Source: Lentzea aerocolonigenes
GTDB lineage: Bacteria; Actinomycetota; Actinomycetes; Mycobacteriales; Pseudonocardiaceae
Assembly: GCF_000974445.1 (NCBI RefSeq)
Contig: NZ_BBOJ01000015.1
Coordinates: 1-64,000 of the forward strand
Length of the DNA stretch: 64,000 nucleotides
Direction: 5' to 3'
Shown here: piece by piece, positions 333 to 19,000 of the stretch
Position numbering within the stretch: the stretch's first letter is position 1
Layout of the letters: every line of letters begins with the position of its first letter
Position numbers and translations under genes: made by a program
The notes under the pieces: model-generated
Told to the model about the DNA's origin: nothing
Databases searched by the model: none
The model's input: the letters and a program-made list of their open reading frames with translations, nothing else

Positions 333-363
333 GGGTTGGTCCTTTCCGTGCGTGGTAGCGAGA

Positions 364-398: not shown

Positions 399-418
399 GA
401 CAGGGGTGACATGGACTG

Positions 419-2341: not shown

Positions 2342-2378
2342 GGCGACGGCCTCTCTTCAGAGTTGACGGCATGGCAAA

Positions 2379-2409
2379 GCCCCGGCGCGAATGTGTGATG
2401 CGCCGGGGC
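2379..2409 (-). terminator. Hairpin after the DpdA-like gene
   Basis: Perfect 10-bp arms GCCCCGGCGC / GCGCCGGGGC (2379-2388 and 2400-2409) with an 11-base loop, lying between the DpdA-like stop (2446) and the ParB-like start (2341). Confidence 0.6.
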
Positions 2410-2445
2410 GAAGGTGGTTTTCTGGAGCGGAAGCGACGGCCTTGC

Positions 2446-3330
2446 TCAGTGCGAGAAGATGCGCCGCTCGGAGTCGCGAATAGCGGTGATAACTGTTTCT
2501 CGCCAGGTCAGAGCCCAGCGGGGGCAGTTGTTGCAGATACCGGCGTGCTGGCAGCCTGGCAGCCGCAATCGGGTGCGCCGAGCCTGATCACTCCACGCCA
2601 TGCTGTCTGCGGATGCGAAGTGGTGTGCGTTGGCACGGAGTGCAGTGGTTTTCAACCCGAAGCCGTGCATCCGATAGCCGCGGCGGGCGAACCGCTCGGC
2701 GATCACGCCGATGGGCTGGACTGAACCGCGGCGACAGATCGACCCGAGTCCTACTCGTCGCTGCACGGCCAGGTTGATCCCGGCTTTGCGGTACATGGCG
2801 TCGTGCTGCTCGTACTCCTCCAGAGTCCAGCCTTGGAGCACAGGCAGCCAGGGCACCGCGGGGAACTCGCGCGCCAGGTACAGATAGGACTCCAGCGTGC
2901 ATTCCTGGTGGTCGAGTGTCGTCGCGCCCGCGCGGTCGAGAACTTCCGGTTCGGCTGGTCTGTCGAGCGGAGCCACGAAGTCCGGGATCCCGATCTCGTC
3001 CATCAAGCGGTAGACCATGCCGCCGTACTGGTCCTCGTCCCACCGCCACGTGCCGTGGTCCCGGATCTCGGTGTATGCGCCGCTGTCGATGATGTAAGGC
3101 ACGCCGGCGACAGGCATCCCGCGGCCGCCAGGAACATAGGCGGCCAGCGTGTGCGCGGAGACGCACAGAGGTACCGGGCTATGGGCCAGCCACCACGGAC
3201 GGTGCGTCCCGAGGTAGAAAGTCGTTCGGCGTGCTGGATCTCGCGCGATCCGGGACCGCGTCCAAGGCGCAGGAGTGAGATCCCGCATCGCTGGCCACTG
3301 GGCGCGAGGCCGTGGCGGACGCGTGATCAC
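2446..3330 (-). CDS. DpdA-like / TGT-fold deazapurine transferase-like protein
   Basis: 294 aa. The layout matches the actinobacterial and phage DpdA-like branch of the tRNA-guanine transglycosylase superfamily: FYLGTHRPWWL near the N-terminus, IDSGAYTEI (compare DSGGFQ, the substrate-pocket Asp of TGTs), PWLPVLQGW, VGLGSICRR, HGFGLKT and SADSMAWS (probable second catalytic Asp), then a C-terminal Cys/His zinc site around CQHAGICNNC. DpdA exchanges guanine in DNA for a 7-deazapurine such as preQ0. Whether this protein acts on DNA or RNA cannot be told from sequence, and no preQ0 biosynthesis gene lies in the window. GTG at 3330 is chosen: it starts just after the upstream stop (3346), while the internal ATG at 3288 has no ribosome-binding site. 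Confidence 0.75.
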   Translation of the reverse strand: MITRPPRPRAQWPAMRDLTPAPWTRSRIARDPARRTTFYLGTHRPWWLAHSPVPLCVSAHTLAAYVPGGRGMPVAGVPYIIDSGAYTEIRDHGTWRWDEDQYGGMVYRLMDEIGIPDFVAPLDRPAEPEVLDRAGATTLDHQECTLESYLYLAREFPAVPWLPVLQGWTLEEYEQHDAMYRKAGINLAVQRRVGLGSICRRGSVQPIGVIAERFARRGYRMHGFGLKTTALRANAHHFASADSMAWSDQARRTRLRLPGCQHAGICNNCPRWALTWRETVITAIRDSERRIFSH

Positions 3331-3345
3331 CGAGCACCGTCCGTT

Positions 3346-4143
3346 CTACAGCGGCGGCTTCGGAGTGTCGCCAGACCTGCAATCGCCGAACCAGGCGTGG
3401 CGGCACATCCCGAGGAGATCGGCGTGTCGTCGGCGCCAGTCGGGCATCCAGAGGCGCAGTCGTTGCCGCCACTGCGGACCGTGAGCGCGCCCGGCGGGCT
3501 GAGTGGCGTGGGCCAGCTCGTGGACGAACACGTACTCGACAACCGGCATCGGGAGGGCGAACGCCGTCCAGTGCATCGTTACGAGGTGCTTGTCCGGGCC
3601 TTCGTAGATGCCCCAGCGCTTTCGGCCGAGGTTGCGCACGGCGTAGGAGAGTCCAGATATCCCACCGTCTACTTCGTACGGACGGCCTTGCTGTTGCATC
3701 CAGGCGAGGCCGACATCGCGATAGAGCCCCGCGATCGCACGACGAGCGACGTCGGGACGTTGAGGCTTCGCGTAGAGGATGCCGTCCTTGGCGATTGCGG
3801 GAAGCTTGCCGATGTCGCCGGGTGGTGTCGTGACGAGGCGGAGCAGGTAGCGGTGACCGAGAAGGTCGAAGGGTTCGCCGTCGACGAGTGCTTTGGCGGG
3901 ATACCTGGGAGCGCAGAGCTCGAAGCGTTCGCGCTGCTGATTGATCCAGGAGCGACGATCACTGACGAACTTCACCACTCGCTCGGTGGTGGCCACGGTC
4001 GGTACCAGGACGGCGACAGCACCATTTGACCTGATCTTGATCGTGATCAGGCGGCTCTGCGGACGGAGCACCACTGTCGTGCGCCACTCGCTGGGTAGTC
4101 CGAGCGAGCCCAGAGCAGCGAGAAGGTGGCCGGCGTCGGTCAT
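3346..4143 (-). CDS. YgjP-type M48-like metallopeptidase
   Basis: 265 aa. The C-terminal half has VHELAHATQ (HExxH zinc motif) followed by a third ligand in HGPQW and MPDW, the hallmark of the YgjP/DUF45 family of SprT-like metallohydrolases. The N-terminal half has the family's beta-rich region (RLITIKIRSNGAVAVLVP). The ATG at 4143 overlaps the DprA-family stop by 4 bp (ATGA), indicating translational coupling and deciding the start. Its substrate is unknown; relatives occur in mobile elements beside nucleic-acid enzymes. Confidence 0.8.
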   Translation of the reverse strand: MTDAGHLLAALGSLGLPSEWRTTVVLRPQSRLITIKIRSNGAVAVLVPTVATTERVVKFVSDRRSWINQQRERFELCAPRYPAKALVDGEPFDLLGHRYLLRLVTTPPGDIGKLPAIAKDGILYAKPQRPDVARRAIAGLYRDVGLAWMQQQGRPYEVDGGISGLSYAVRNLGRKRWGIYEGPDKHLVTMHWTAFALPMPVVEYVFVHELAHATQPAGRAHGPQWRQRLRLWMPDWRRRHADLLGMCRHAWFGDCRSGDTPKPPL

Positions 4144-5018
4144 TGCAGACCGTCCTCGTAGGCGATGTGTTCGACAGACGTGGCGAGAGTTGCCGCGCCG
4201 GTTCGAAGCAGCTCGTGGACGCCTAGGGAGCTGGCGGAATAGATCGACCCAGGTACGCCGTAGGAGCGTCGGCCGAGCTCGTTGGCGACGCCCACCACCG
4301 CGAACGATCCGCTTCTCCTTCCCGCTTCTACGACAACCGTCGCGCCGGTCAGCGCCGCAAGCAGACGGCAACGCGCGTGGAATCGGTGACGTGCCGGCGT
4401 AGCCCCGAACGGATACTCGCTGACCAGCAACCCGCCATCGTCGATCACTGCTCGGTACAGGCTGGTGTGCGGGCGTGGATGAGCCAGGTCGACTCCGTTG
4501 GCGAGCACGACAACCGCCCGGCCTCCAGCCGAAAGGGCTCCGCGGATCGCCGCGCTGCCGATTCCGTAGGAACCGCAGCTGACGACGGTCACGGCTTCAC
4601 GTGCGATTCCGTTGCCGAACTCTTCGGCGACGGAGTGACCGTAGGCCGACGCAGCGCGTGAGCCGGTCACCGTCACGGCTCGCTTCGTGATGTCGGCCAA
4701 CGATCCTTTTCCCTTGAGCCACAACGCGAGCGGCGCTCCGCGGGCTGTGAGCCCGCTGAAGCGGCCGAACGGCCAGTCGTCGTGTTCCGGTGTGAGAAGA
4801 CGCGCCTCGCCGCGCTCGATGGCGTCCAGGTCGTCGTCGATCTCGATGTCGGACCGACGGATCTCGCCGAGAACTGCCGCTGGTGCAGTTCCCTCCCGGA
4901 TCTGAACGACAGCTTCCACCGGACCGTGAACAGCGACATATTGCTGCAGTGCCGGTGCTGGAGGTTCTGAGACGCGCAACAAGTAGAGACGAGCGCGAAG
5001 CTCTGCATCTGAGGACAT
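4140..5018 (-). CDS. DprA/Smf-family DNA-processing protein
   Basis: 292 aa with the Rossmann-like (SLOG) core of DprA: VTGSRAASAYG, VVSCGSYGIGSAAIRGAL, LANGVDLAHPRPH, GGLLVSEYPFGATP and VVEAGRRSGS. Chromosomal DprA binds ssDNA and loads RecA during transformation; element- and phage-borne copies may do this during entry or act as sensors. ATG at 5018 has AAAGGGAG 7 bases upstream. It is coupled to the YgjP-type gene. No C-terminal winged helix is visible, so it resembles the short form. It is probably not the housekeeping copy. Confidence 0.85.
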   Translation of the reverse strand: MSSDAELRARLYLLRVSEPPAPALQQYVAVHGPVEAVVQIREGTAPAAVLGEIRRSDIEIDDDLDAIERGEARLLTPEHDDWPFGRFSGLTARGAPLALWLKGKGSLADITKRAVTVTGSRAASAYGHSVAEEFGNGIAREAVTVVSCGSYGIGSAAIRGALSAGGRAVVVLANGVDLAHPRPHTSLYRAVIDDGGLLVSEYPFGATPARHRFHARCRLLAALTGATVVVEAGRRSGSFAVVGVANELGRRSYGVPGSIYSASSLGVHELLRTGAATLATSVEHIAYEDGLQ

Positions 5019-5070
5019 GATCAGCTCCCTTTCAGCGGCCTGGTCGCGAGGGCGAAGCGGCGGAAAGTCT

Positions 5071-5637
5071 CTAGAGGGGAAGAGAATCCGGCAGTTGACC
5101 GTGTGACATGCCGTGGGCGATAAGGCGTCCGATGACCGCCTCCCAGGCGTTGCGCTGGTCGCCGTGACGAACCTCGACGACAACGGTGCGCGCACGCTCC
5201 TTGCGGAGCGCAGGGCACGCGGCTGCCGAGAAGGCAAAGCACCGCTTGTGCATCGCGCCACCCTCAGCGACGACACCCTCGAAAACCGCAACCCACGCTC
5301 GTGATCGCCGGTCCAACGACTCACCGCAGACCTGGCAAAGCCAGTGCCTCAGCGCCTCACGGACACGTGCTCCGTTGAGTGCGGCCCAAGCGACTCGGTC
5401 ACCGATGACCGGTGTGATCCAGGGGATCTTGCGGCCTTCCATCTCGGGACGGGGCCAGCCTTCGTCAGGTTGGAGGTGTTGGATGACGACGTCGCCTGCG
5501 TTGTCTCCATTGAAGGGGCAGGTGCCGCGAACGCAGTAGACGTACCTGAGGTCTTCCTCCGGACGTAGCTGCAGGTCGCCGCCGCATTCAGGGCATGACG
5601 GAAACACTGGGATCGCAGCCCACTGTTGTGTACACAT
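5071..5637 (-). CDS. Zinc-ribbon protein of unknown function
   Basis: 188 aa. CPECGG near residue 15 followed by YCVRGTC forms a four-Cys ribbon. A second cluster, LCQVCGES with a later HKRC, lies mid-protein. ATG at 5637 is preceded by GAAGGAAGG. The family is not recognised. Its place between a phage-type protein and the DprA-family gene suggests a nucleic-acid-related role, which is inference only. Confidence 0.65.
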   Translation of the reverse strand: MCTQQWAAIPVFPSCPECGGDLQLRPEEDLRYVYCVRGTCPFNGDNAGDVVIQHLQPDEGWPRPEMEGRKIPWITPVIGDRVAWAALNGARVREALRHWLCQVCGESLDRRSRAWVAVFEGVVAEGGAMHKRCFAFSAAACPALRKERARTVVVEVRHGDQRNAWEAVIGRLIAHGMSHGQLPDSLPL

Positions 5638-5685
5638 TGGACCTTCCTTCGGGCTTCACGTGAGAGAGACATCAGGGCTGGGTCG

Positions 5686-6501
5686 TCATCCCCACTTGCT
5701 GTGCTCGCGCGTCCACTTGGCTTCGACCTTGGGCGCGAGCTCCTCACGCAGGTCGTCTTCGGTGCGGCCGTGCTTTGCCGACAGCGCGGCGAGGATGAGG
5801 CGTGCGTCTTCCTGGTGCTCGGCGATGCTGGCGCGGTGGAAGACCACGTTCTGCCGCGTCAAGTACCTGGCGTAGCTCAGCAAGTCGGCGTACGAGCGTC
5901 GGGCGGTGAACTCGGTCTCGATCAGTCCACAGTGCTTGGTGCGCAGGGGAGTTCCATCCGGGGAAGAGATTGCCTTCGCAGCTTTTGCACGCGCCCGTTG
6001 CTCTCGCCCGGCGCTCCGTGCGAGCTGCTCAGGGGTCTTGATTCGACTAGGTTGATTTCGGACCTCGACCGGTGCGCTCGGGTAGCACTCGGTGCAGGCG
6101 GCCTTGCCGGCCAGATCGACGATCTCCACCTCGTCGCGTCCGGACAGATGCGTGAGCCACGCGAACTTCGTGGTGGGGAAGCAGGTTCGACAGGCGGTGG
6201 TGCGATGCACGTGCCCGCCGGTGTTGAGCACGAGCCAGGCGCGCGTCCAACCACCGCGCCGTGTGAACTCCTGCTCAAAGGGCATTGCCGCGGCTTCGCA
6301 CGCGTCGGCAGCAGAACACGCCTGCTCGATCTGGACTACCAACTCGTCCGCCAGATCGACTTCGCCGCGTTCGATGCGATCTCGACGACGCTTCCTGAGC
6401 GCCACGAGGGTCTGCTCCGCCTTGGTGAGTTCCACGTTCAGGCGGGCGAGTTCGGCATCGATCTCGTTCGGAGAAGCCTTCGCCAGGTTGTTGATGGGCA
6501 T
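5686..6501 (-). CDS. Actinophage-type coiled-coil / Cys-cluster protein
   Basis: 271 aa. Residues 10-55 are a charged coiled coil (ELARLNVELTKAEQTLVALR). The centre reads GGWTRAWLVLNTGGHVH, then CRTCFPTTKFAWLTHLSG and AACTECYPSAP. From memory, this Cys-pair pattern is shared with abundant actinobacteriophage proteins of unknown function. The C-terminal part resembles a helical domain (SYADLLSYARYLTRQNVVFHRASIAEHQEDARLI). The function is unknown; the likeness supports a phage contribution to the element. Confidence 0.65.
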   Translation of the reverse strand: MPINNLAKASPNEIDAELARLNVELTKAEQTLVALRKRRRDRIERGEVDLADELVVQIEQACSAADACEAAAMPFEQEFTRRGGWTRAWLVLNTGGHVHRTTACRTCFPTTKFAWLTHLSGRDEVEIVDLAGKAACTECYPSAPVEVRNQPSRIKTPEQLARSAGREQRARAKAAKAISSPDGTPLRTKHCGLIETEFTARRSYADLLSYARYLTRQNVVFHRASIAEHQEDARLILAALSAKHGRTEDDLREELAPKVEAKWTREHSKWG

Positions 6502-6574
6502 GGTTGTTTGCCTCGACCTTCGTGAGGGGTGCGGAACCGGCAGCTCGAGCTGGAGGCGCCTGGAACGGGAAGCG

Positions 6575-7447
6575 TCAGCGGTATTCGCCGGTCACCTGGA
6601 CCAGATGGGCCATGTCGACCACGGGGCCGGCCCAGTAGCGGACGTGAGCGGGCTCATCGCCGATTCCCCAGGCGTAGAGCCTGAAGTCGGGATCGCTCGG
6701 GCTCGCCCACTCGGAGGTGTTGCCGAGACCGCCGGGTGTCCGCACCCCGTACTCGTCGCATCGGTCGACATCGATCTCGAACCAGGGACCGGCGCGGAGA
6801 TGCTCGAACACTCGGCTGTAGGGCGCGTCGAACGGAGTGATGTGGGCCTGCTGGCATGCAGCCGCCCACTCGGCCAACGCTGACGCGGACAAGGAACGAG
6901 AAGAGGTGATCACCGCATGTACGGCGTCGACGTCTGGCAGGCGGCCATGATCGCTGCTGTCCGCGTAGGCGATCGTCGTCGGACTGGTGAACCACAACGT
7001 GATCCATTGGGGCCCGCGGTGCCAGCCTCGGGTGAAGCCTCGGACGCCGTCGCCGATCTCTGAGATCGGGATCGGTGGCAGCACTCCCTGCAGGCCTTGA
7101 TCAGGTCGAGGCGTCCAGTTGTGGGAGCGGAGATCGTCGTCGACGGTCCGGTACAGCATGTCGGTGGTCCGGGCGCCGGTGTAGCCGTGCGCGGCTCTGC
7201 TCAGCGTCTGCGCCAACCCGTTCATGCGACCTGTGACGTTGCGTAGACGTTGTGGGGGAACGGGTTCCGAGCTCAAGGCGTCGTCAGCAAGGTCGGCAAC
7301 CTGGCACCGAAGCTCCGCGGAGAGCGCGGCCAGCTCCAGAAGGCTGGCGGCTTGCGCTCGGTTGACCATCTCGAACGAGTCGGCGCGAGCCCGTTCCCTG
7401 GCGAGTTCTGCACGCGCCGACTCGGCGGCTTGGCGGTCCTGCGACAT
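6575..7447 (-). CDS. Hypothetical protein with N-terminal coiled coil
   Basis: 290 aa. The first ~70 residues are a heptad-rich helix (ESARAELARERARADSFEM). The rest holds short Trp-rich segments (GWHRGPQWITLWF, GPWFEIDVDR). ATG at 7447 is chosen over the longer frame because AAAGGGAG lies 7 bases upstream, the same ribosome-binding pattern as the DprA-family gene. No family is recognised and no membrane segment is seen. Confidence 0.55.
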   Translation of the reverse strand: MSQDRQAAESARAELARERARADSFEMVNRAQAASLLELAALSAELRCQVADLADDALSSEPVPPQRLRNVTGRMNGLAQTLSRAAHGYTGARTTDMLYRTVDDDLRSHNWTPRPDQGLQGVLPPIPISEIGDGVRGFTRGWHRGPQWITLWFTSPTTIAYADSSDHGRLPDVDAVHAVITSSRSLSASALAEWAAACQQAHITPFDAPYSRVFEHLRAGPWFEIDVDRCDEYGVRTPGGLGNTSEWASPSDPDFRLYAWGIGDEPAHVRYWAGPVVDMAHLVQVTGEYR

Positions 7448-7518
7448 AGTGCTGCTCCCTTTCGCTCTATTGGCGCAGCGAGGTTCAAATTTCCCGGTAG
7501 GGGTTCGAGATTCGAGTG

Positions 7519-8334
7519 CTATGCGGCGGACAGGTAGCCAGTGCCTGGGAAGACGGCCAACTCGGGTAGGTGGAGTTCCCTGAAGGCTTGCCATGCCTCT
7601 TCGGAATTGGCGCGGGCTCGATTTCGTGCCTTGTCGAGAGGGTTGAGGCCACGCTGCTGCTCGGTTTCCTGATTCAGTCGTTGCCGGACGAGCCAGGTAA
7701 CGGCCTGGACCTGATGCGCCGCGACAAGGCGGCCGGAACTGGCGGTCGTCAGTTCCGCAGCAGACCGGTACTGATCGACGACGTGGTCGTAGTGCCGACG
7801 GCTGATCGAACCGTCGCGGCGCTTGGCCCCCTTGAGGGGAGCCGCGCCGTACTCCTCGGTGGTGACCGGGTATCCGATCGCGACGGAGATGGCGTGCCGG
7901 TCCACCACGACGTGCGGATCTGCCGGATCCTTGTCGCCGCCGTGCTCGATGAGGTGGGCGAAGTCGCGGATCTTAGGACCGGTGAGGAGGTCCTCGTATC
8001 GCTCGCCGGCCAGGAGTCGATCGGCAGCACGCTTCTGCAGCGCAGACGCGAACGCGCCAGAGCCGGGGCCGCCGATCCCCTTCCGCTCCTGGAGCACACG
8101 TGCTGCGGTGAGGATGTTTTCGATCCAGCCCTGCTGTGGCGAATAGATGGCCAACATGCCTGCGCCAAGATGGGCGTCACCGTCCGCGATGGTTACGGCG
8201 ACATGATTGGCGTCTCGGTACCAACGCATGCCTCGTTCGATCTCGCCGGACGTTGCGAGCTCGTAGTGCCGCACAATGTTTTCGGGACTAACTGGGTGCA
8301 TCTGAAACCACGGATGGTCGCAAGCGGGAGTCAT
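7519..8334 (-). CDS. Phage-associated protein (DUF7178-like)
   Basis: 271 aa. The order NILTAARVLQERKG ... LLTGPKIRDFAHLIEHGG ... DPHVVVDRHA is shared with phage-encoded proteins of the DUF7178 type, recalled from memory rather than searched. The mean-length helical fold has no obvious catalytic signature other than the conserved VDRHA. ATG at 8334 has GAGGAAC upstream; an ATG at 8361 is possible but has no ribosome-binding site. The function is unknown. Confidence 0.6.
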   Translation of the reverse strand: MTPACDHPWFQMHPVSPENIVRHYELATSGEIERGMRWYRDANHVAVTIADGDAHLGAGMLAIYSPQQGWIENILTAARVLQERKGIGGPGSGAFASALQKRAADRLLAGERYEDLLTGPKIRDFAHLIEHGGDKDPADPHVVVDRHAISVAIGYPVTTEEYGAAPLKGAKRRDGSISRRHYDHVVDQYRSAAELTTASSGRLVAAHQVQAVTWLVRQRLNQETEQQRGLNPLDKARNRARANSEEAWQAFRELHLPELAVFPGTGYLSAA

Positions 8335-8396
8335 GTTGTCAGTTCCTCGCGTTCGATTCATGAAAACTGACGGGGTTTGGTTTGAGTGCGCACGAC

Positions 8397-8436
8397 AAAG
8401 GCCGGCCGCGCTCCCTCGGGAACGCGACCGGCCTTT
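8397..8436 (-). terminator. Strong hairpin between cluster genes
   Basis: 14-bp arms (8397-8410 and 8423-8436) with a single G:T mismatch, AAAGGCCGG... / ...CCGGCCTTT, flanked by T-runs. It lies after the stop of the first cluster gene (8460) and before the start at 8334, so the cluster is probably not one uninterrupted transcript. Confidence 0.7.
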
Positions 8437-8459
8437 TGTAGACGTGCCGTTGCGACGAA

Positions 8460-9350
8460 CTAGTCGATGCGGACGAGGCGTCGGCAATGTTTGGCGGCGT
8501 GGATGACGCCGGACTCGTCCCGCCCGGTCGGGCGCCACCGTTCGAACCGGACGGTGCGCTGCCTCTTCGTGGTGCACTGGCACCACTCGTCGGAGTGGAT
8601 CACGTCGCTGCGATCGCCGATGAGCATGAAGCGCTTGCCAGGCTTGCCGAACAGGAACAGATCGTCGCTGAACGGCACGGCGAAGTAGTAGACGTCCGGG
8701 TCGGGCAGCTCGCGAGTCAGTTGTTCAGCCCTGCGAATCCTGGTCTCGTTCTCGAGCGCGGTCAGAGGCGAGCGACCGAGCAGGGGCGTCCACTCGACGC
8801 CGTTGAACATCTGCCAGTACGCGGACTCGTCATCGAGACCGTATGCCGGATGGTTGGACAGCTTGGCAGCCAGTCGTTCGCGAGCGTCCTGGCGCAGGAC
8901 GATTCGTCGGCAGACGAGTGGGTCGCCTCGTTCAGGCCCCCAGAGCGCCGCGCGGCGAGGGAGGTAGCTCCGGACGAGAAGGTGGTTGCCTCGGCCGGCA
9001 TTGGCCACGATGCCGGCGGTCTCGGCCTCGTAGATGATCTCGTCGAGAAGGACGTGCAGGACGTCGGCGAACATGGGTTCGTTGTCTTGTTGGCATTGCT
9101 GCAGAAACTGCTTGAGCTCGCGGTCTCCGAACTGCGTGTCGTCGTGGGCGGTGAACTCGGTATCGTCGCCGCAACCTCTGTTGGTGATGCGACCGACCAC
9201 GCCGAGTTCCGGGTGTATGAGTTCGGCGCTGAAGGCGACGCCGCGGTCGTGTTCCACCGTGGCCAATCCGCTGATCGAGAACGAGTAGGGCGCGCAGATG
9301 CCGGTGTGCACCCAGCGCACTTCGAGGGCCGGTTCTGGCGCGGTAGCCAT
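8460..9350 (-). CDS. Hypothetical protein, first gene of the minus cluster
   Basis: 296 aa; the family is not recognised. ATG at 9350 is decided by AAGGAG 6 bases upstream; the longer frame would run into the palindrome at 9426-9555. The C-terminal half contains FFAVPFSDDLFLFGKPGKRF-type beta segments (YYFAVPFSDDLFLFG) and ends in a basic tail. The middle has an acidic helix (DVLHVLLDEIIYEAETAG). No signal peptide or membrane segment is seen. Confidence 0.6.
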   Translation of the reverse strand: MATAPEPALEVRWVHTGICAPYSFSISGLATVEHDRGVAFSAELIHPELGVVGRITNRGCGDDTEFTAHDDTQFGDRELKQFLQQCQQDNEPMFADVLHVLLDEIIYEAETAGIVANAGRGNHLLVRSYLPRRAALWGPERGDPLVCRRIVLRQDARERLAAKLSNHPAYGLDDESAYWQMFNGVEWTPLLGRSPLTALENETRIRRAEQLTRELPDPDVYYFAVPFSDDLFLFGKPGKRFMLIGDRSDVIHSDEWCQCTTKRQRTVRFERWRPTGRDESGVIHAAKHCRRLVRID

Positions 9351-9425
9351 GACGAAACTCCTTGTGGCGCAGGAAGATCTGCTTCGACACCCGCCACGCA
9401 TGCGCTCATTCACCACACAGCGCGG

Positions 9426-9555
9426 TGTTGTCCCGCGTGCGGCGGGCGCACACGAAATGCACTGGCGCGCCGAGAAGGGCAAGCCCCTCTTTTGGGCTTG
9501 AGCTTCTCGGTGGGACGGTGCATCGTGTGGGTCGCCCGCCGCACGCGGGACAACA
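9426..9555. repeat. 130-bp composite palindrome with perfect 23-bp arms
   Basis: The outer arms 9426-9448 and 9533-9555 are perfect inverted copies of 23 bp. Inside, 9449-9462 pairs with 9518-9529 apart from a 2-base bulge (CACACGA.. / ..TCGTGTG). Next come perfect 8-bp arms CCGAGAAG / CTTCTCGG (9470-9477 and 9503-9510) and a top hairpin CAAGCCC / GGGCTTG (9480-9486 and 9494-9500) with a CTCTTTT loop. Such nested symmetry fits a replication or transfer origin, a structured RNA or a miniature inverted-repeat element. No direct target duplication is seen at the flanks. Confidence 0.85.
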
Positions 9556-9680
9556 TCGGGAATCTGCCTCAACCGCCGCATAGACCTGCTACCGCTGCCA
9601 CTGATCCCGAAGCCGGGTCTGATGGACTGAAGCCAACTTAAGTACTCACTCGACCGCGTGATTTGAAGACCTCGCCGCGA

Positions 9681-9739
9681 GCGCATTGGAGAAGCTCCAA
9701 GCGCGGATCCGGTAGTGGAGTTAGCCTGCCTGAGCAGGC
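9681..9739 (+). promoter_or_regulatory. Two hairpins in the leader of the PAS/GAF-like gene
   Basis: GCGC(A)TTGGAG pairs with CTCCAAGCGC (9681-9691 and 9695-9704, one bulged A). GCCTGC pairs with GCAGGC (9724-9729 and 9734-9739). Both lie just upstream of the start at 9765 and may belong to an origin-like region or a 5' leader. Confidence 0.5.
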
Positions 9740-9764
9740 CAATCTTCGACCGGGGGACGGAGCG

Positions 9765-10796
9765 ATGGCGGCCGACTGGTTGTTGGTCGAGACCTTCGGG
9801 GGTTCTCGGTGCGAGCCGACGGTGCTCGCTGTTGGAAGCAACCCGAAAAACATGGTTCCGCTTCGTTCCGTGCTCGGCCGCGGGCCGTTCCTCGCCGACG
9901 CACTCGGCGTCACTGCTCGCATAGTTGAAGGGCGCCAGTCAGTTGAGGCCCGGACGACCACGGGCAAACGCCGCGTGATCGGGCACCCGTTGCTCGCCTA
10001 CGGCGGGCTGGTCCACGGGGTGTACCTGTGGGTGGGGCCGTTGGACGAGGATCCGCCGCCCCGCGATCCTGCTGGTGCCTGGCACATCAACCTCACGTTG
10101 CACGTCAGCAGCAGGTCTGACGATCTGCTGCGGTTGTACGGGACTAGACCGGACAGGTGGCGAAACGAGCACGACCTGGCCGAGCTGTTCGCCTACCAGC
10201 GGCTCACGACGAACGCCGACGAGGCCAAGGCGCTGGCGCTCATCGTCAGGGCGACTGCGGGTGCGGAGCACCTGGCCACGTGGACCGTGAACCGGGACGA
10301 CGGTGTTCGGCGTGCAGTGCACTTCGCGTGCCGGTGCATTGAGGTGAAAACTCCTGGCGGCAGGGTTGAGCTGATCGTCCGGGGAATCACCCACGACATC
10401 GGACCTGCGGAAAGCGTGCCGACCGCGCCGCCTCCCACGCCGGTTCTGCTCGCTCAGCAGATCGTTGCGGCGGAGGCAACGCCCGGACGATGGCGGGCGA
10501 TCGCCGACCTGCGCACCATGAGGCTGTTGAAGTGGCTCGACAACCCCATGCCCGGACTCGCGTGGACGCTCGACTCACCACACCACCCCGCGATTCACCG
10601 CGAGGACCTGCGCAGCGCGGTCGGCTTGTCGAAGGAACTGGCGTCGAGCGGGCGGGCGGACGGCGTTCTGCGGTTCCGCAGGGAGGACGGAGAGTGGATG
10701 AAAGTAGCGGTATCCGCTGCGCTCATCGCTCTGGATCAACACACCACCGCTGCGCTCGTCACCCTGACTCTCTCCGATCATGGGAAGGTCGACTGA
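9765..10796 (+). CDS. PAS/GAF-like protein (DUF5593-type)
   Basis: 343 aa. The N-terminus (ADWLLVETFGG ... PKNMVPLRSVLGRGP) and the following HGVYLWVGPLDEDPPPR resemble a mycobacterial/actinobacterial family annotated DUF5593 or PAS-domain protein. A second alpha/beta domain (residues ~250-343, LRTMRLLKWLD ... LRFRREDGEWMKVAVSA) looks like a further PAS/GAF unit. Members are presumed to sense small ligands, but no output domain is present. ATG at 9765 follows GGGGGACGGA. It is the first gene right of the palindrome and reads away from it. Confidence 0.6.
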   Translation: MAADWLLVETFGGSRCEPTVLAVGSNPKNMVPLRSVLGRGPFLADALGVTARIVEGRQSVEARTTTGKRRVIGHPLLAYGGLVHGVYLWVGPLDEDPPPRDPAGAWHINLTLHVSSRSDDLLRLYGTRPDRWRNEHDLAELFAYQRLTTNADEAKALALIVRATAGAEHLATWTVNRDDGVRRAVHFACRCIEVKTPGGRVELIVRGITHDIGPAESVPTAPPPTPVLLAQQIVAAEATPGRWRAIADLRTMRLLKWLDNPMPGLAWTLDSPHHPAIHREDLRSAVGLSKELASSGRADGVLRFRREDGEWMKVAVSAALIALDQHTTAALVTLTLSDHGKVD

Positions 10797-10825
10797 GTTG
10801 TTCGCCGCGGGGAAGGTGCTGGATC

Positions 10826-11665
10826 GTGAGCTGCTTCGAGGGCAAGGTCGCGGTGATCACCGGCGCTGCGGCAGGGATTGGCCGAGCTCTGGCCGTTGAG
10901 CTCGCGCGACGTGGGGCTCGGCTCTCGCTGCTTGATCACGACGCTCTTGGCCTTGCGGAAGTCGCTCACCGCTGTGAAGCGATCGGCGCACAGGTGCTGG
11001 CCCAGGTAGTCGACGTGACGGACTGGATCGATGTGCAGGCAGCTGCGGCCGCGACGACCTCAGCGCTGGGTGGTGTCGACTCGGTGTTCGCGGCCGCCGG
11101 GATCATTCACCGCGGCAGTCTGCTCGACTCCGACGTCGCGGATATCGAGCGCGTCATGTCGGTGAACTGGCGGGGGCTGATGTACACGGTCAAGGCACAT
11201 CTTCCAGCCGTTGTCAGCTCCCCAGCCGGCCGGATCGTGACGTTCTCAAGCGCCTTCGGCCTGTTGGCGATGCCGAGGTACAGCGCGTACAACTCGTCGA
11301 AGTTCGCCGTCCGCGGCTTCAGCGAGTCGCTGCGCCAAGAGCTCACGTCCACCCAGGTGTCGGTGACGTGTGTCTTCCCTGGGGGAGTGCGGACCTCGAT
11401 CGTCCGCAACGGCCTCTTCGCGGCAGGCGAGCACCGTGACGCGGTGATCCGGGGCTTCGAGAAGCGCGTCGCACGCACCGATCCCGAGGAAGCTGCGGCG
11501 ATCATCCTAAGTGGAGCGGAACGCCGTCGGGCGCGGGTGTTCGTGGGGAACGACGCCCGGCTGGTGGCGATCCTCGCCCGCCTTGCCGGCGGTCACTACC
11601 AGGATGCGCTGCCTGCGGTAGGACGGTTCCTCGGGCGAGTGCGGCGTCAGCTCCGCCGGCCATGA
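10826..11665 (+). CDS. Short-chain dehydrogenase/reductase
   Basis: 279 aa classical SDR. It has the TGAAAGIG cofactor-binding motif (TGxxxGxG) near residue 12, NAG replaced by AAAGI, the catalytic Ser in TFSSAFG, and YNSSK (YxxxK) around residue 151. The acidic residue after strand 2 (LLDHD) favours NAD(H) over NADP(H). GTG at 10826 follows GGAAGG with a 9-base spacer. It starts 29 bases after the PAS/GAF-like gene, so the two probably share a transcript. The substrate is unknown. Confidence 0.85.
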   Translation: MSCFEGKVAVITGAAAGIGRALAVELARRGARLSLLDHDALGLAEVAHRCEAIGAQVLAQVVDVTDWIDVQAAAAATTSALGGVDSVFAAAGIIHRGSLLDSDVADIERVMSVNWRGLMYTVKAHLPAVVSSPAGRIVTFSSAFGLLAMPRYSAYNSSKFAVRGFSESLRQELTSTQVSVTCVFPGGVRTSIVRNGLFAAGEHRDAVIRGFEKRVARTDPEEAAAIILSGAERRRARVFVGNDARLVAILARLAGGHYQDALPAVGRFLGRVRRQLRRP

Positions 11666-11684
11666 CCCACATCGGTGACATCGT

Positions 11685-11738
11685 TTGACGTGATCGGGAC
11701 CACTGCTTACGCTGGACCAATCGGACTATTCCGATTGG
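11685..11738 (+). promoter_or_regulatory. Promoter with downstream palindromic operator
   Basis: TTGACG (11685-11690), a 17-base spacer and TACGCT (11708-11713) resemble a -35/-10 pair. Four bases later begins a perfect palindrome, CCAATCGGA / TCCGATTGG (11717-11725 and 11730-11738), covering the expected start point. This is a plausible repressor site; the IclR-type HTH protein encoded downstream is a candidate ligand. Confidence 0.55.
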
Positions 11739-11792
11739 GTTGGCTTTGTCGCTATCGGGCTGATCCCTGAAACGCAGTGGTGAGGCAGCTTT

Positions 11793-12029
11793 GTGCTGGC
11801 CTCGAACGCGATCGGGGATCGACATGTCTCGGCGAACTTCAGCTTCCAGCAACCACCGTCTGGTACCTCACAGCGCACTCTTGCGCTCTTCGGCCTGGAT
11901 CCCGCCTGCCGGAGGCTCATCTGCTCACGGGCCCGTGATGGCCATGTTGCTGTCGTACTGGTACCTCGGCGTGGTCACAGGCCCGCCCGTGGAGCTCTTC
12001 TGCTTCTCGATCACGTCAACGTCAGTTAG
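11793..12029 (+). CDS. Doubtful small protein, 78 aa
   Basis: GTG start with TGAGG 7 bases upstream, about 70 bases after the promoter/operator at 11685-11738. The product (LFGLDPACRRLICSRARDG ...) matches nothing I recognise, and its codon use is only moderately GC-rich in third positions. It may be leader RNA rather than a gene. Confidence 0.25.
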   Translation: MLASNAIGDRHVSANFSFQQPPSGTSQRTLALFGLDPACRRLICSRARDGHVAVVLVPRRGHRPARGALLLLDHVNVS

Positions 12030-12095
12030 CTCAAGGCACGGCGGACGGTTGAACCGACGTGTCGCGATGAAGTCATGCCAAAGGGGAGGACAGAA

Positions 12096-12362
12096 ATGAA
12101 CGCAGAGCTGGAGAAGTCGCCGCAGGTCAGCGCTCCTGAGCGGTTCGCGTGCATTCTGAGGCAGTTCACCGAGGGGCAGCCATCGAAGAGGCTGTCCGAC
12201 CTGAGCGCCGGCGCCGGGTTGCCGATCAGCACCACGCACCGGTTGCTGAAGGGGTTGGTCGACAACAAGGTGCTGGTGCGTGACGAGGACGGGCGTTATC
12301 AGGTGGGACCGCTGATGCGCGCGATCGCCGATCAGCTCGAACACGCGGATGTGGCGAGCTGA
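12096..12362 (+). CDS. Stand-alone IclR-type winged-helix protein
   Basis: 88 aa. LRQFTEGQPSKRLSDLSAGAGLPISTTHRLLKGLVDNKVLVRDEDGRYQVGP is split here only by description: residues ~22-75 are the IclR winged HTH with its wing. The ~170-aa effector-binding domain of full IclR proteins is absent; a stop follows at 12362. ATG at 12096 has GGGGAGG 5 bases upstream, so it beats the ATG at 12075. It could be a small repressor acting on the palindrome at 11717-11738, or a remnant. A strong hairpin follows at 12481. Confidence 0.72.
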   Translation: MNAELEKSPQVSAPERFACILRQFTEGQPSKRLSDLSAGAGLPISTTHRLLKGLVDNKVLVRDEDGRYQVGPLMRAIADQLEHADVAS

Positions 12363-12480
12363 CGGCACAGACCTCGTCGGCGAACCATCAGCTCGTCGAC
12401 GCACTGGAGGCGCACGGTCGTATGCGGATCTCGCCGGCCGTGCGCTTCGCCGTCGCCAGACTCTTCGTGCCACGCTCGAC

Positions 12481-12515
12481 GGAAGGCTCGCGCTCATGGT
12501 GAGCGCGAGCCTTCC
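12481..12515 (+). terminator. Perfect 16-bp terminator hairpin
   Basis: Arms 12481-12496 and 12500-12515 (GGAAGGCTCGCGCTCA / TGAGCGCGAGCCTTCC) are perfectly complementary with a TGG loop. It stands at the end of the plus-strand unit, 120 bases after the HTH stop. Confidence 0.75.
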
Positions 12516-12524
12516 TGGGATCGG

Positions 12525-12560
12525 TTGATGCGCACCGACCGGACGCTAGGTGCGCATCAA
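12525..12560 (-). terminator. Terminator hairpin for the small secreted protein
   Basis: Perfect 11-bp arms TTGATGCGCAC / GTGCGCATCAA (12525-12535 and 12550-12560), directly beyond the stop of the minus gene at 12569. Together with 12481-12515 it separates the convergent units. Confidence 0.7.
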
Positions 12561-12568
12561 CATATCGA

Positions 12569-12928
12569 CTATGCGATGCAGGTGGGCTGGTACCAGTCGA
12601 CGAATTGCAGGGAGACCCAGCCTCGGACGCCAGTGCGGAGGTTCGTGGTCAGCATCCAGGCGTCGTCCTTGTAGTCGTCTGGCCATTTCGGCCAGCTGTA
12701 GTGGTCGAAGCGCATGGACTGACCAAGGATTGGCAGGCCGCCCGGCGTCGCTCGGATGTTGACCCAGTCGCCCGTCGAGAACGGGTAGCCCGTGCAGTCC
12801 TTTGTGGAGGCGGTGGGCTGTGGCATGGGCTCGTTGGTTGCGGCTTGGGCGTTGACGACGCCGATGCCGACCATGGTTGCCACAATGGCAAGCACGCTCG
12901 TGAATCGGCTGATGGACATGCGAATCAT
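12569..12928 (-). CDS. Small secreted protein, SH3-like
   Basis: 119 aa with a Sec signal peptide: MIRMSISR, the hydrophobic VLAIVATMVGIGVV, then NAQAA with likely cleavage near residue 30. The mature ~90 residues contain YPFSTGDWVNIRATPGG, typical of bacterial SH3 domains, then RGWVSLQFVDW. Two Cys (CTG and CIA) probably form a disulfide. ATG at 12928 follows AGGAGAGG. It may bind cell-wall material. It is monocistronic, ended by 12525-12560. Confidence 0.7.
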   Translation of the reverse strand: MIRMSISRFTSVLAIVATMVGIGVVNAQAATNEPMPQPTASTKDCTGYPFSTGDWVNIRATPGGLPILGQSMRFDHYSWPKWPDDYKDDAWMLTTNLRTGVRGWVSLQFVDWYQPTCIA

Positions 12929-13090
12929 AGTTGGCCTCTCCTGATTTCAATCAGTGGAAGCGTGCGCGCCTAGGCTTTATGGCCGGATTGCGCCTTCGCT
13001 CTGTGAACTAAGAGAAGCTCGCTTGCGGGTTGGCGTCAACGAATGGTGCGAATATTGGTTAATGCTGATCCCGGCGGATTCTTTGCACGA

Positions 13091-13126
13091 CAGATTGCCG
13101 GTTCGGAAACCCTTGCCGGCAATCTG
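13091..13126 (-). terminator. Terminator hairpin after the XRE gene
   Basis: Perfect 11-bp arms CAGATTGCCGG / CCGGCAATCTG (13091-13101 and 13116-13126), 42 bases beyond the XRE stop at 13168. The extended arms share further bases (GCAC / GTGC). Confidence 0.65.
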
Positions 13127-13167
13127 TGCGGTCTGTGATTGGCTATGTCAGCGCGAGGAACAGTAGA

Positions 13168-13725
13168 TCATGCAGCACTCCTGAGTTCGTGGTGCACGGC
13201 CTCGTACAGGGCGGCGGTGCGGTCGAAGGCGGACTGAATCTCCAGCGGCTCGACGTGCAATGCTCGCGCGAGGCGGCGGGTGATCGTCCTGGGTACCTGG
13301 CCCGTGAGGAGATACCGGTCGATGGTGTCGGTGGCGAGGCCCAGGAACGCGGACAGCAGTGGCGGGCTTTCGTCGGCGGTGCCAAGGCTGCCGGTGCGCT
13401 CCCAGAACTGCAGACGACCGAGGTTGGTAGCGCTGCGCACGGCCAACTCGGCGGTGGTGAGTGCGTGGTTCATACGCAGATCGGCAAGCGAGGGATCGCC
13501 GCTGGGTGGGTAGAGCAGGTCTGAAGGTCGGACCTGCAGAACCTGTGCGGCGGCGCGCAGGTTCCGTGCAGACGGTGTGCTCACGCCGGTTTCCCACCGC
13601 ACAACGGTTTGCTGCGACAGGTTGGTCTGACGGCCGAGGCTCTGGCGGCTCATTCGGGCCTTGCGCACGGCGTGGAACGCCTCGGGGTTGAACCGGGGGC
13701 ATTCGTCGATTGCTCTCCTAGGCAT
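13168..13725 (-). CDS. XRE-family regulator with two HTH-like halves
   Basis: 185 aa. Residues ~14-70 form a Cro/C1-type HTH (ARMSRQSLGRQTNLSQQTVVRWETG). A second, weaker copy follows at ~80-160 (MNHALTTAELAVRSATNLGRLQFWERTGS), so the protein looks like a tandem HTH. The ATG at 13725 lies 19 bases after the stop of the phosphatase-like gene, with AAGGGG before it. The two genes form one operon, so it may sense or regulate with that partner. No ligand domain is seen. Confidence 0.75.
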   Translation of the reverse strand: MPRRAIDECPRFNPEAFHAVRKARMSRQSLGRQTNLSQQTVVRWETGVSTPSARNLRAAAQVLQVRPSDLLYPPSGDPSLADLRMNHALTTAELAVRSATNLGRLQFWERTGSLGTADESPPLLSAFLGLATDTIDRYLLTGQVPRTITRRLARALHVEPLEIQSAFDRTAALYEAVHHELRSAA

Positions 13726-13744: not shown

Positions 13745-14632
13745 TCAGGCCGTGCGGCTTGGTGAGGAGGTGAGCGGGGACCTGGGAGGCGGGGGCTGGC
13801 TGGATCGACGCACGGAGGCGGCGCTGGCGTGCGCTAGTGCTTCCAGCAGTGCGTCGGAGATACCTGGCGCAGTGGCGAAGACTGGGTCGCCCAGTTGTGC
13901 GCCTGGTCCTTTGTGGCCTGGCCAGTGGACGGTGGCGCCTGCTTCGTGCGCGATGAGAAGGCCGGCCGCGGAGGCCCTCAGGCCTACGTCGTGCTCGACG
14001 TAGGCCGTCAGCCATCCTGCGGCGACACGGCAGAGCTCCAGCGCGGGAGCGCCGCCACATCGCAGGTCGGCCACCTGAGGCAGAAGCCTCGCCACCAGTT
14101 CGGCTTGATCCGCGCGGATCGCCGCAGCCGCGGAGAATCCGGTGCTGATCAGCGCATCTTCCAAGAGCTGCGTCGATCCAACGCGGATCTCGAGCCAGTC
14201 GGTGGAGATAGCAGGGTCGCGCAGTTGAGCGCCCTGTCCCAGGCCTGCCAACCAGAGCCGACGGCTGTGCGGTTCGGCAACCGCGCCCGCCAGGACGACG
14301 TCGTCGAGCGCGGCTGCGACGGAGACCGCGTAGCTGGGCAGTCCGCTGACGTAGTTGTCGACACCGCTGAGCGGGTCGATGATCCACGTGATTTGGCCGG
14401 ACGCGGCTGGCTTCTCGTCCAGTACTGCGTCTCCGGGGCGATGCAGCGCTATCAGGTCGCGAGTGAGGTGTTCCGAAGACATGGCGGCCGGCACGAGCAG
14501 GCCGCTCGAGGTGTGGCGGGCGCCTCGGTACGGCCCGCCGGCAGTGCGCAGGCGGTCGGCCCAGATCTCTCGGGCTGCATGTGCGGCAAGGTGTCCAGCG
14601 AATGCGGAGAGCCGCTCGACGTGTGTGAACAC
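13745..14632 (-). CDS. Degenerate inositol-monophosphatase-family protein
   Basis: 295 aa with the fold signature of inositol monophosphatases: WIIDPLSGVDNYVSGLPSYAVSVA and ALELCRVAAGWLTAYVE ... SAAGLLIAHEAGATV. In active members the first motif is DPLDGTxN and the later one WDxAAG. Here the second Asp is Ser and the WD is replaced, so two metal-binding Asp residues are missing. Catalysis is unlikely; it may bind a sugar phosphate or nucleotide as a sensor for its operon partner, the XRE regulator. GTG at 14632 follows AAAGGGGGA. Confidence 0.7.
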   Translation of the reverse strand: MFTHVERLSAFAGHLAAHAAREIWADRLRTAGGPYRGARHTSSGLLVPAAMSSEHLTRDLIALHRPGDAVLDEKPAASGQITWIIDPLSGVDNYVSGLPSYAVSVAAALDDVVLAGAVAEPHSRRLWLAGLGQGAQLRDPAISTDWLEIRVGSTQLLEDALISTGFSAAAAIRADQAELVARLLPQVADLRCGGAPALELCRVAAGWLTAYVEHDVGLRASAAGLLIAHEAGATVHWPGHKGPGAQLGDPVFATAPGISDALLEALAHASAASVRRSSQPPPPRSPLTSSPSRTA

Positions 14633-16009: not shown

Positions 16010-16091
16010 TACCGCGCCGCCAGTAACCGCGAAGCGGGTGCGGGTGCGGCTGCGGGAAGCGAGTCGTGTTGTGAACACCTGACAAGATCGC

Positions 16092-19000
16092 TCACGGCCA
16101 CCAGCGCTGAACGTCCTCCAGGGCCCGCAGGAGCCGCACCGCCGTGTCCGGTCCGCCGATCGCACAGAGGCTCGGAAGGCTCGCGGCGAGGATCTCCATG
16201 CAGTTCCGGCGGCTGTTCGCGCTCAGCAGGCTGCGTAGGACGCCCAGGTAGAGCTGATCATCGGACAGTTCGGCCGCGCGAGCCAGCAACGCGCAGGACG
16301 TGTGAAGGTCGCCGACCATGGTCAGGGCGAGCAGGACGGGAAGCTGGTCCGCGGACAGGAATGGGGCGAGTTCGGCCGGCGCATGGTCGTTCGACGGGAA
16401 CTTGGCGTACAAGGTCTCCAGCGTCGCGTCGATCACCTGGGTGCGTTCGTCTGCGGGGAACTGCCCGACGAGGGCGGTGAGCACTGCGGTGCGGCGGGAG
16501 TCGTCGGAGATCGCCATCGCGGCTGCGAGGGCTTCTTGCCGCCGTTCCGGGGACAGGCGCGGGATGAGGGAGGCCAGGGCGTCCACGCCGTGGGTGAAGT
16601 CGGTGTCGTACCAGGAGCCCAAGTGGTCCGTGATCGTTTTGACCGCGAGGGCAACGGCCGCTTCGGTCGAGCGCAGAGCTAGGGCCGCGCGCACCCTCGC
16701 CCGCGTCCCTGGGCTGGAGAACGTCGAGACGAGTGCTTCGGCGCGCGGCAGGGCCTCGGCGGGAAGGACGGAGATAGCTTCCTGCACCAGGAAGCTCCGC
16801 GGGTTGTCCTCCTCCGGATTCACCCGCTCGACCAGGGAGAAGAAGAGCGGGACGTGGTCGGCGGTGAGGTGGGGCGCGAGGCCGTCCAGCGCGATGGGCG
16901 GTAGATCCCGTTGGCGCGCAACGACCTCGCTCAGCACGTCCGTCACTACCGTGCCGCGCTGGTGATCGGGTAGATGGGGCAGAAGTGCAATCAGCGCCGT
17001 GGCCCTCGAACGTTCTCCCAGACCGTAGGCGGCGGCAAGCGCGCGATAGCGGTCCGGCAGCGACAGGCGCGGTGCCAGCCGACTGAGCAGCTCTCCTTGC
17101 CGGTTGGAGTACGACATGCGCCTGAGCAGCTCCGGCAGGCGCGACAGCAAGTCCAGCCCCGGATGTCCGGCCAGGGCGAGCACCAGATCCGGCTCGTCCA
17201 GGAACGGCTCCAGTTCGTCCGCGGGAAGGAACGCCAACGAGTCGCCCAGCCTCCGCAGCACGGCGTGCCTGTCCTCGGGGACCTTGAGCCACGTCCCGGT
17301 CACCCGCGAGACCATCGTGCGGCGCTCGTCGTCCGGGAGGTGCGGGATCAGCGAGACGGACAGCGCGATCCGGCTGTTGCGATCGTGGATCTCGCTGGAG
17401 GCCGCCAACGCCGACGCGACGGCGCTCTGCTGTTGCCGGGGCGTCGGCAGGTACCGGCTCAGGTCGATCAGCGCGTTCACGGCCACCGCATGGGGTTCGG
17501 CCGACTCGGCCAGCTCTACCGCGACCGGGAGCAGGTCCGCGGGCAGCAGCGGGGCCAGCTCCGTGAGGAGATTTGCCCTGGTCACCGCAGGCAGGTTCCG
17601 CGCAGCCTCCAGCGTTCGAGGGAGCAGAGCCGCGGGCAGGTGAGGGGCGAGTCGCAGCAACAGCGTGGTGTCGGTGAACCCGTCCGCCGACGGCTTCACG
17701 AGGAGCCGGATCGCGTCTTCGAACAGCGCGGCAAGCCCTTCGACCGGCAGGTGTTCGGCGAGAGCGGGGAGCAGGCGGGCCCGTGTGCCCCACTGGTCCG
17801 GACCGGCGATCGCGGCCGCGATCGTGCGCGCGACATCGGCGCGTTGTCCTGCCGGCAGGAAAGGCACGAGGTGAGCGAGGGACGAGATTCGCGTTTCCGA
17901 GTCGTCAACGGCTTTGATCGCACGGTGTACGCCGGCGATCTGCTCCTCGGTCATCAGCGCCGCGAGCTGCAGCCTGTCCGTGAGGGACTGCCCCTCGGTG
18001 TCGAGCTCCGCGAGCGCGGTTCGCCGCAACTCTGATCGTTCCGGCTCCGGCAAGAGGTCGACCACGTCGGCGGCTGCGCTGACCTTGGCCGAGAGAACCA
18101 AGCCCTGGGCGAACTTGGCGGGGAGGTAGTCCAGGCTGATCAGGGGGAAGTTGGCGAGGACGTTCTTGGCCTCCTGGTCGGTGATCAGCGCCGCCGCCGG
18201 GAGCGTCCGGCGGCGCTGGTCCTCGGACAGGTACGGGGCTAAGGCGATCAGCGTGGTGCGACGGAGGTTCGCGCTCTCCAGCGCCGTGACGGCCGAGATC
18301 ACCTGTTCCAGTTGCCCGGTCGTGAGGTGAGGCGCTATCGCCTTGAACGCGGCTAGCGCGGGATCGGGCTCGGTGAGCGCCAGCGCCTCGGCGAACGTTC
18401 GGTCGCGCAGCTCCTGCGGCAGGTGTGCTGCGAGGTGAGCCACCGCGACCGTACGGTCGCCCGGATCGGGAATCCAGTCGGCGACGGCCAACGCCTCGTC
18501 CAGGACGTCCGGGTGTCGCGCCGCCGGCAGAATTGGGAGCAGCGTTGCCAGCGTCAGCACGTGGTCATACGGCGACGGCGTGCGACGGGCGTAGCTGATC
18601 GTCCTCTGTGGACTCCACACCTTCGTCGCCGCTAGCGCGCGCAGGAGTCCGAGCGAGATCCTCTCGGTGAGGTCGCCGATCGACGTGATCATCAGGAGGT
18701 AGCGCAGTTCCGATGGCAGGCTCGGCGCCACGCCGTCTGCGGCCAGCTCGGCATCGGCAGTTGTGGCGTGGTGCCACAGCGCCAGGTTCAGATCGCCCAC
18801 GTACCTGTCGAGGCTGTCGGCGCTGTCGTGCGCGGTGAACCACCTGAGCCTGCCGTCGACCTCTTCGGACAACAGCGCGTCCAGGTCGTCGGGACGTCCA
18901 CCGAACAGCAGATGGCTTGTCAGGTGGCGCAACGCGTACGAGTCCGTGCTCGCAAGGCACTGGTCCGCGATCCGGCTGTGAGCGGCCAGCGCCGCGGGAC

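Follow-up and report, generated by a model that had tools for sequence, protein, structure and literature searches.

Single-stranded DNA (ssDNA) promoters have been demonstrated for enterobacterial plasmids, and that of F, Frpo, has been shown to function both in vitro and in conjugating cells (PMC9849209). Frpo1 and Frpo2 of F and ssi of ColIb-P9 are, in the same account, stem-loops of the transferred strand that carry −35 and −10 boxes and lie in the leading region (PMC9849209). Samuel et al. 2024 reported Frpo-like candidates from anti-defence islands; these too are predicted hairpins with −35/−10 boxes upstream of leading-region open reading frames (ORFs), and the main text of that paper contains no word beginning with 'actino' (PMC11541004). 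Here we describe a composite palindrome at positions 9426–9555 of a 64,000-nt stretch of Lentzea aerocolonigenes DNA (contig NZ_BBOJ01000015.1, positions 1–64,000, forward strand; hereafter the window). On a model built from computed features, it is very probably an ssDNA promoter in the leading region of a conjugative element with a MOBF (TrwC) relaxase.

The palindrome and its relatives differ from these promoters in several respects. A search of 72,556 plasmid records, F among them, gave no match to the window hairpin, so that no sequence similarity to Frpo or ssi is detectable; phage records gave no match either. Compared with F, the actinomycete hairpins are shorter (about 130 versus 317 nt) and GC-rich, place the −35 next to the loop and lack F's A+T-rich apical stem, occur in eight or more copies in some elements and belong to another phylum, the Actinomycetota. 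Whereas the candidates of Samuel et al. were found via Frpo similarity or a consensus search (PMC11541004), the actinomycete family comes with a consensus, geometry statistics and a bubble profile of its own. In a stretch of F analysed with a laxer detector, the second and third best hairpins were taken, by their place, as Frpo2 and Frpo1. Only one of these two has a candidate for the motif in the form used here, so F is a control for place and fold, not for motif. The leading genes in this stretch, which include ssb, an antirestriction gene, a methylase gene and a ParB-family gene, run toward traM, which adjoins the oriT of F. By analogy, the best reading is that the actinomycete hairpins would function like Frpo without being members of its family by sequence.

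Other described systems are more distant. The promoter of the phage N4 virion RNA polymerase is also a hairpin on ssDNA, but this enzyme is a phage-carried single-subunit polymerase and its hairpins are much smaller. EGeRS of pLS20-family plasmids are likewise repeated and stand in front of the establishment operons of a conjugative plasmid from Gram-positive bacteria, but their authors reject an ssDNA promoter, partly since the transferred strand is the non-template strand (PMC8708921). The same bacteria harbour integrating conjugative elements, among them actinomycete integrative and conjugative elements (AICEs), in which an FtsK-like protein moves double-stranded DNA (dsDNA), and integrative and conjugative elements (ICEs) of the type IV secretion system (T4SS) type, some with MOBF relaxases already reported (PMC3218068). 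The present hairpins go with TrwC relaxases, so their relatives are of the T4SS/MOBF type. Among the open-access papers listed in literature searches, none was seen to describe an ssDNA promoter in actinomycetes; preprints and subscription journals lay outside these searches.

The 130-bp palindrome with perfect 23-bp arms is present as the initial annotation described it. The arms (9426–9448 and 9533–9555) extend to 26 nt at 96% identity, and the plus strand, folded as RNA, forms a single hairpin of −108.8 kcal/mol (z −14.0; none of 200 shuffles equals it). Its hairpin score of 114.5 is the highest in the window, where the runner-up reaches 60.0 with the same settings; the maximum in 10 dinucleotide shuffles of the window is 66.5. 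The hairpin is placed between the minus-strand gene g8460, whose start codon at 9350 is preceded by GGAG, and a plus-strand Rv3651-like gene starting at 9765, with 75 nt from the hairpin base to the former start and about 210 nt to the latter. A crude ORF caller puts it within a longest ORF at 8460–9686. Its parts are as follows.

9423–9558, plus strand: composite hairpin; presumed transferred strand and template for the minus-strand operon
9423–9448, plus strand: outer (lower) 5′ arm; predicted template strand of the duplex that follows the start site
9456–9457, plus strand: two-base template-strand bulge opposite the −10
9487–9493, plus strand: apical loop, 7 nt
9498–9503, plus strand: −35-like hexamer TTGAGC in the 3′ arm, beside the loop
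9521–9526, plus strand: −10-like hexamer CATCGT, 17 nt after the −35, with A−11 at 9522 and T−7 at 9526
9530–9532, plus strand: three-base non-template bulge at −3 to −1
9533–9558, plus strand: outer (lower) 3′ arm; would be the non-template side of the downstream duplex
9448, minus strand: RNA 5′ end predicted from spacing; partner of 9533

In the source genome a full-length match is found only at the palindrome's own place, the remaining matches being short. Of 24 genus genomes, one other, L. kentuckyensis, has a full-length copy, in the same context and with the same flanks. There the 130 bp carry one change inside a 4.7-kb stretch that is 95% identical (binomial probability of so few changes about 0.014); this sole change hits the partner of A−11 and unpairs A−11. 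The single mismatch of the 26-nt arms is not present in that copy. Another Lentzea-genus genome with a weak DNA match, G005, has an element with relatives of the ParB-like (44%), DpdA-like (77%), h5071 (50%) and g8460 (38%) proteins, and here the loop is kept while the outer stems differ in sequence yet still pair. The loop, CAAGCCCAAAAGNGGGGCTTG, is present in 3 of 390 family genomes with one mismatch allowed; its pattern had one match in viral contigs, with no such hairpin visible around it. Weak DNA matches in three further genomes (G083, G270 and G298) were taken as chance.

The G005 contig (164 kb) contains eight hairpins that score at least 80, all at 66.7–111.5 kb and in one orientation. 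Most genes in this zone point to 115.3 kb, where a TrwC relaxase is encoded; the gene for a TraG/TrwB-type coupling protein lies at 136.7 kb. On the strand complementary to the genes, the 3′ arm of all eight hairpins has a −35-like hexamer immediately after the loop, followed at 17 nt (18 in one) by CAnnnT; on the gene-sense strand none has this motif. The window hairpin has TTGAGC-17-CATCGT at the equivalent position. A further G005 hairpin outside the eight (G005:C14:106599–106773, score 78) has a perfect TTGACA in its 3′ arm and GATTTG at the −10 place.

The initial annotation had called for a search for covariation in the stems, and it was found. In a covariance model, R2, whose structure was derived from folds of the same sequences used for the covariation count, 27 of 46 pairs are changed on both sides, which none of 500 shuffles reach (an earlier model with a poor alignment, R1, was not used). 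R2 matches at E ≤ 0.01 occur in 37 of 390 family genomes and 15 of 46 genera, with clusters in other Pseudonocardiaceae; some single weak matches are probably chance or other repeats. Where a contig holds more than one match, all are on one strand in 19 of 22 cases, and the three exceptions have matches 0.4 to 3.3 Mb apart. Similar hairpins are found on Streptomyces plasmids. In a genome of another family (G478), 9 of 11 hairpins have the promoter-like motif, always on one strand, in a region that shares short 88% stretches with Streptomyces plasmids.

This motif is one-way. A −35/−10-like pair 16–18 nt apart, in the 3′ arm on the presumed transferred strand, is found in 72 of 78 hairpins (the better-scoring strand of 129 R2 matches on fetched loci) and is spaced by exactly 17 nt in 57; on the other strand the motif occurs in one of the 78. 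Taken alone, the count of 72 is partly circular, since R2 was trained on motif bearers. A structure-only detector was run to reduce the circularity, on 20 loci picked for holding model matches, and of its 58 hairpins 49 had the motif in one orientation only, one in both and eight in neither. With the first −10 base required to be C or T, permutation of stem base pairs gave the motif in 48 of 3240 single-orientation trials; 66 of 81 real hairpins had it in either orientation and none in both. Because the arms are near-palindromic, perfectly matched arms would put the motif on the gene-sense strand too; mismatches mostly prevent that.

The pattern of these mismatches was profiled with motif-bearing hairpins only (80 in one profile, 53 Pseudonocardiaceae and 16 Streptomyces-type hairpins in others), a selection that fixes the identity of A−11 and T−7 but not their unpaired state. 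When the hairpins are aligned on the −10, the non-template positions most often unpaired are −11 and −7; unpaired bases are also common between −6 and +2, the part that RNA polymerase melts, and pairing mostly resumes from +3. The first four −35 bases are nearly always paired, the last two unpaired in up to 44% (Streptomyces set). Position −11 is unpaired in 42% and −7 in 45% of the Pseudonocardiaceae set; in the Streptomyces-type set the figures are 81% (A−11, 13/16) and 75% (T−7, 12/16), A−4 and A−3 are unpaired in 12 each, and G+2 is unpaired in all 11 hairpins that have a G there, while −2 to +1 are paired. Extra template-strand bases opposite −12/−11 amount to 75 counts in 80 hairpins. 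In open complexes, non-template −11A, −7T, −6G and +2G are flipped into pockets of the polymerase (PMC4496690). The hairpins look like a DNA copy of an opened promoter, with the outer arms modelled as its downstream duplex, which would explain why the outer arms are perfect.

The orientation of the hairpins relative to the relaxase gene is also fixed. TrwC matches were found in 22 of 24 genomes searched, which were picked for their matches from the 37 with an R2 match. The geometry analysis used 106 matches, the better strand of each R2 place, and counted pairs within 150 kb with one plasmid treated as circular. It gave 69 hairpin–trwC pairs on 17 contigs, six of them from the training genome G005, and in 68 trwC shares the leading genes' strand and lies on their downstream side, at a distance of 8.6 to 63 kb. 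On this geometry and on a gene direction as in F, with the position of oriT/nic presumed, the hairpins may lie upstream of leading genes templated by the transferred strand. Like Frpo and ssi, the predicted folds have a single strand forming a stem-loop with rebuilt −35/−10 boxes. The trwC of the window's own element lies on a separate contig (G000:C50), 6.4 kb from the contig start. An L. kentuckyensis contig, G013:C242, bridges the two, window 5–7387 abutting C50 243–11224, and trwC is therefore about 16 kb beyond the window hairpin in the expected direction. Through this junction TrwC is on the same element, unlike in an AICE, where transfer of the FtsK/TraB type needs no relaxase (an FtsK-type protein was not searched for).

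The ORF caller is crude (expected strand for 52 of 66 downstream and 54 of 67 upstream genes; 23 of 67 hairpins inside a longest ORF), and annotated records were therefore used for placement. Of 14 hairpins on two annotated plasmids, 12 are 25–72 nt upstream of annotated starts, one motif-less hairpin of L121 (4997–5144) and one 65-nt hairpin of L122 being left out of the count. The three on Prauserella marina pPmarDSM45268, all motif-bearing, are 36, 45 and 72 nt upstream; on the plasmid of Streptomyces sp. NBC_01795, 9 of 11 are 25–55 nt upstream, all 11 precede genes pointing to mobF and seven have the motif. The four motif-less hairpins resemble one another and precede the four genes annotated as MFS transporters. 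Their −10 place is taken by CAAGCT, its As unpaired, and no −35-like hexamer is present at 15–19 nt; they are perhaps a subclass.

NZ_CP109080.1 (L122), 5141–13691: leading region; hairpins at 6479, 10213, 12572 and 13736, with one of the four MFS genes 40–55 nt behind each

The separate 65-nt hairpin, at 1544–1608 of the same record and 124 nt upstream of mobF, has no promoter motif and is a candidate oriT region.

Together these results partly support the interpretation in the initial annotation, in that the palindrome is a conserved, non-coding part of a mobile element, heads a gene group and is tied to transfer and regulation. The same annotation held that homologues keeping the genes while lacking the palindrome would speak against it. 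Such a case was found for one gene: an Amycolatopsis sp. AA4 plasmid, typed MOBP, encodes a g8460 homologue (32.7% identical) and, in the 41 kb read, has no motif-bearing hairpin and none scoring 80. We read this as the hairpin tracking the MOBF leading region and not g8460.

The proposed mechanism takes the computed evidence (structure, covariation, one-way motif, bubble profile, trwC geometry and placement before genes) as its basis, and from it we infer the transferred strand, the polymerase, the activity and its timing. Conjugation would deliver one strand, here the plus strand, led by a 5′ end at an oriT close to trwC. The palindrome would then fold so that its 3′ arm supplies the non-template −35 (TTGAGC) and −10 (CATCGT) and its 5′ arm the template, while bulges and mismatches would loosen or keep open the region that RNA polymerase normally has to melt, with the perfect outer arms acting as the downstream duplex. 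A host polymerase of the sigma-70 type would initiate near 9448 and proceed leftward via g8460 to the ParB-like gene, toward oriT. Second-strand synthesis would remove the hairpin and so end the burst. In the duplex the −35/−10 pair would face away from the leading genes, so only the folded strand would make the 5′ arm the template into them.

Several other explanations were weighed. A folded incoming strand might instead attract RNA polymerase or primase and so prime synthesis of the complementary strand, as single-strand origins do in rolling-circle plasmids and ICEs. An origin, however, would not need eight copies in one element or the eleven seen in a stretch of one plasmid, most of them directly ahead of a gene, and we regard this as unlikely. 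The promoter might also yield primers as an additional product, and of the suggestion in the initial annotation that the palindrome is an origin, a replication origin is possible as an added role. The repeated copies, most of them before genes and most with a one-way promoter in the folded strand, fit a promoter better. Somewhat less likely still is a transcribed leader RNA at the operon head (an attenuator, riboswitch-like or stability element). The sense RNA would also fold stably, as judged from the plus strand of the window and the gene-sense strand of G005, the hairpins stand before genes and their stems covary. This explanation, however, leaves unaccounted for the −35/−10 pair almost exclusively on the opposite strand, the unpaired −11, −7 and +2 of the promoter and the fixed orientation to trwC. 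The structured RNA envisaged in the initial annotation also corresponds to no described family: in window 8000–11000 no Rfam match came near its gathering score, the best being a microRNA model at 35.2 bits against 94.

Protein binding or partition, for example by the ParB-like protein whose gene is in the block, would suit a long inverted repeat, since such repeats can bind proteins, and an intrinsic terminator could sit between the two units. Yet the arms retain their pairing despite sequence differences from copy to copy, the window hairpin is not followed by a T-run, and neither function explains a one-way promoter; we give this pair of possibilities very little weight. Least credible of all, to the point of being negligible, is a miniature inverted-repeat transposable element, a possibility named in the initial annotation, for which the long terminal arms, small size and non-coding nature of the palindrome speak. 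A transposable repeat is at odds with the one full-length copy in the source genome (the one genome searched for scattered copies with target duplications, of which none were found), with the sole other full-length copy in the genus having the same flanks, and with other copies that are diverged and ordered in leading regions.

The ssDNA promoter reading also faces evidence that does not favour it. In the predicted fold of the window copy A−11 is paired and −35 bases 9501–9502 fall in an internal loop. At −12, 54 of 57 hairpins have C instead of the consensus T, and the motif is missing in 6 of 78, 8 of 58, 4 of 11 (one Streptomyces plasmid) and 2 of 11 (G478) hairpins. In 100 of the 119 kb of the MOBF Streptomyces plasmid NBC_01241 there are two hairpins without the motif and none with it, and outside the family, among 394 genomes of the class, R2 matched 2 apart from that of the window (E ≤ 0.001). 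One G041 hairpin departs from the common geometry; no TrwC match came from either draft genome, G088 or G337, or from the contig of the Prauserella plasmid. Strand polarity itself rests on the position of the relaxase.

In the window, the hairpin heads a co-directional block that leads to the MOBF (TrwC) relaxase:

8460–9350, minus strand: g8460, first downstream gene, 296 residues; no Pfam or NCBIfam match
7519–8586, minus strand: ORF with DUF7178; longest ORF, true start probably internal
4140–5324, minus strand: DprA-like ORF
3346–4371, minus strand: YgjP-like metallopeptidase ORF
2446–3330, minus strand: DpdA-like ORF
419–2341, minus strand: ParB-like ORF, weak NCBIfam match; the block continues to the TrwC relaxase on G000:C50

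Protein searches with DpdA, ParB and g8460 placed the element among actinomycete plasmids, with no match of at least 60% identity; relatives of DpdA are found in many mycobacteriophages and actinomycete plasmids. The DpdA-, YgjP- and DprA-like ORFs (2446–5324) may be establishment or anti-defence genes. On the other side of the hairpin, similarity of the window to L. kentuckyensis (93% from 7367) ends at 16014, just ahead of a 1351-residue ORF with a weak NACHT-domain match, and 16014–16092 is a possible element boundary or insertion point.

Other hairpins were seen in the course of the analysis. In the window's genome, 1164–1317 of L109 (G000:C46) forms a hairpin scoring 162.5 with a weak R2 match and no promoter motif. 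Three weak, near-equal R2 matches on separate contigs of G019 (C5, C19 and C24; the one of them that was read, L081, is without the motif) are perhaps a dispersed repeat. In Pseudonocardia alni pPaSha1, co-directional genes in the neighbourhood of ParB and SSB genes are separated by composite hairpins of about 200–220 nt, some of which share GACTC or TTCATCGCC; considered as the same promoter class, they fail the −35/−10 test and may be another class.

pPaSha1 (L043): composite hairpins at 5997–6212, 10531–10750, 14361–14577, 16935–17154, 18980–19199 and 24063–24281

Conjugation in actinomycetes is best known for dsDNA transfer, the T4SS/MOBF elements being a smaller and less studied group (PMC3218068). 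It is likely, although less so than the reading of the window palindrome itself, that MOBF elements of actinomycetes have a separate family of DNA promoters that copy the open complex, their −11, −7 and often −6 and +2 bases left free by the fold and their −35 and downstream parts kept double-stranded, with many leading genes or operons having their own copy, so that an early burst in the recipient would be ended by strand conversion and the hairpins would mark unknown establishment and anti-defence genes. If true, early expression from the incoming strand would have arisen in, or spread to, a second, high-GC phylum. The hairpins would then offer a structure-plus-motif handle on the first-expressed genes, many of unknown function, of elements in soil actinomycetes, and their unpaired bases would be a natural test of how far a pre-opened promoter substitutes for melting by the polymerase.
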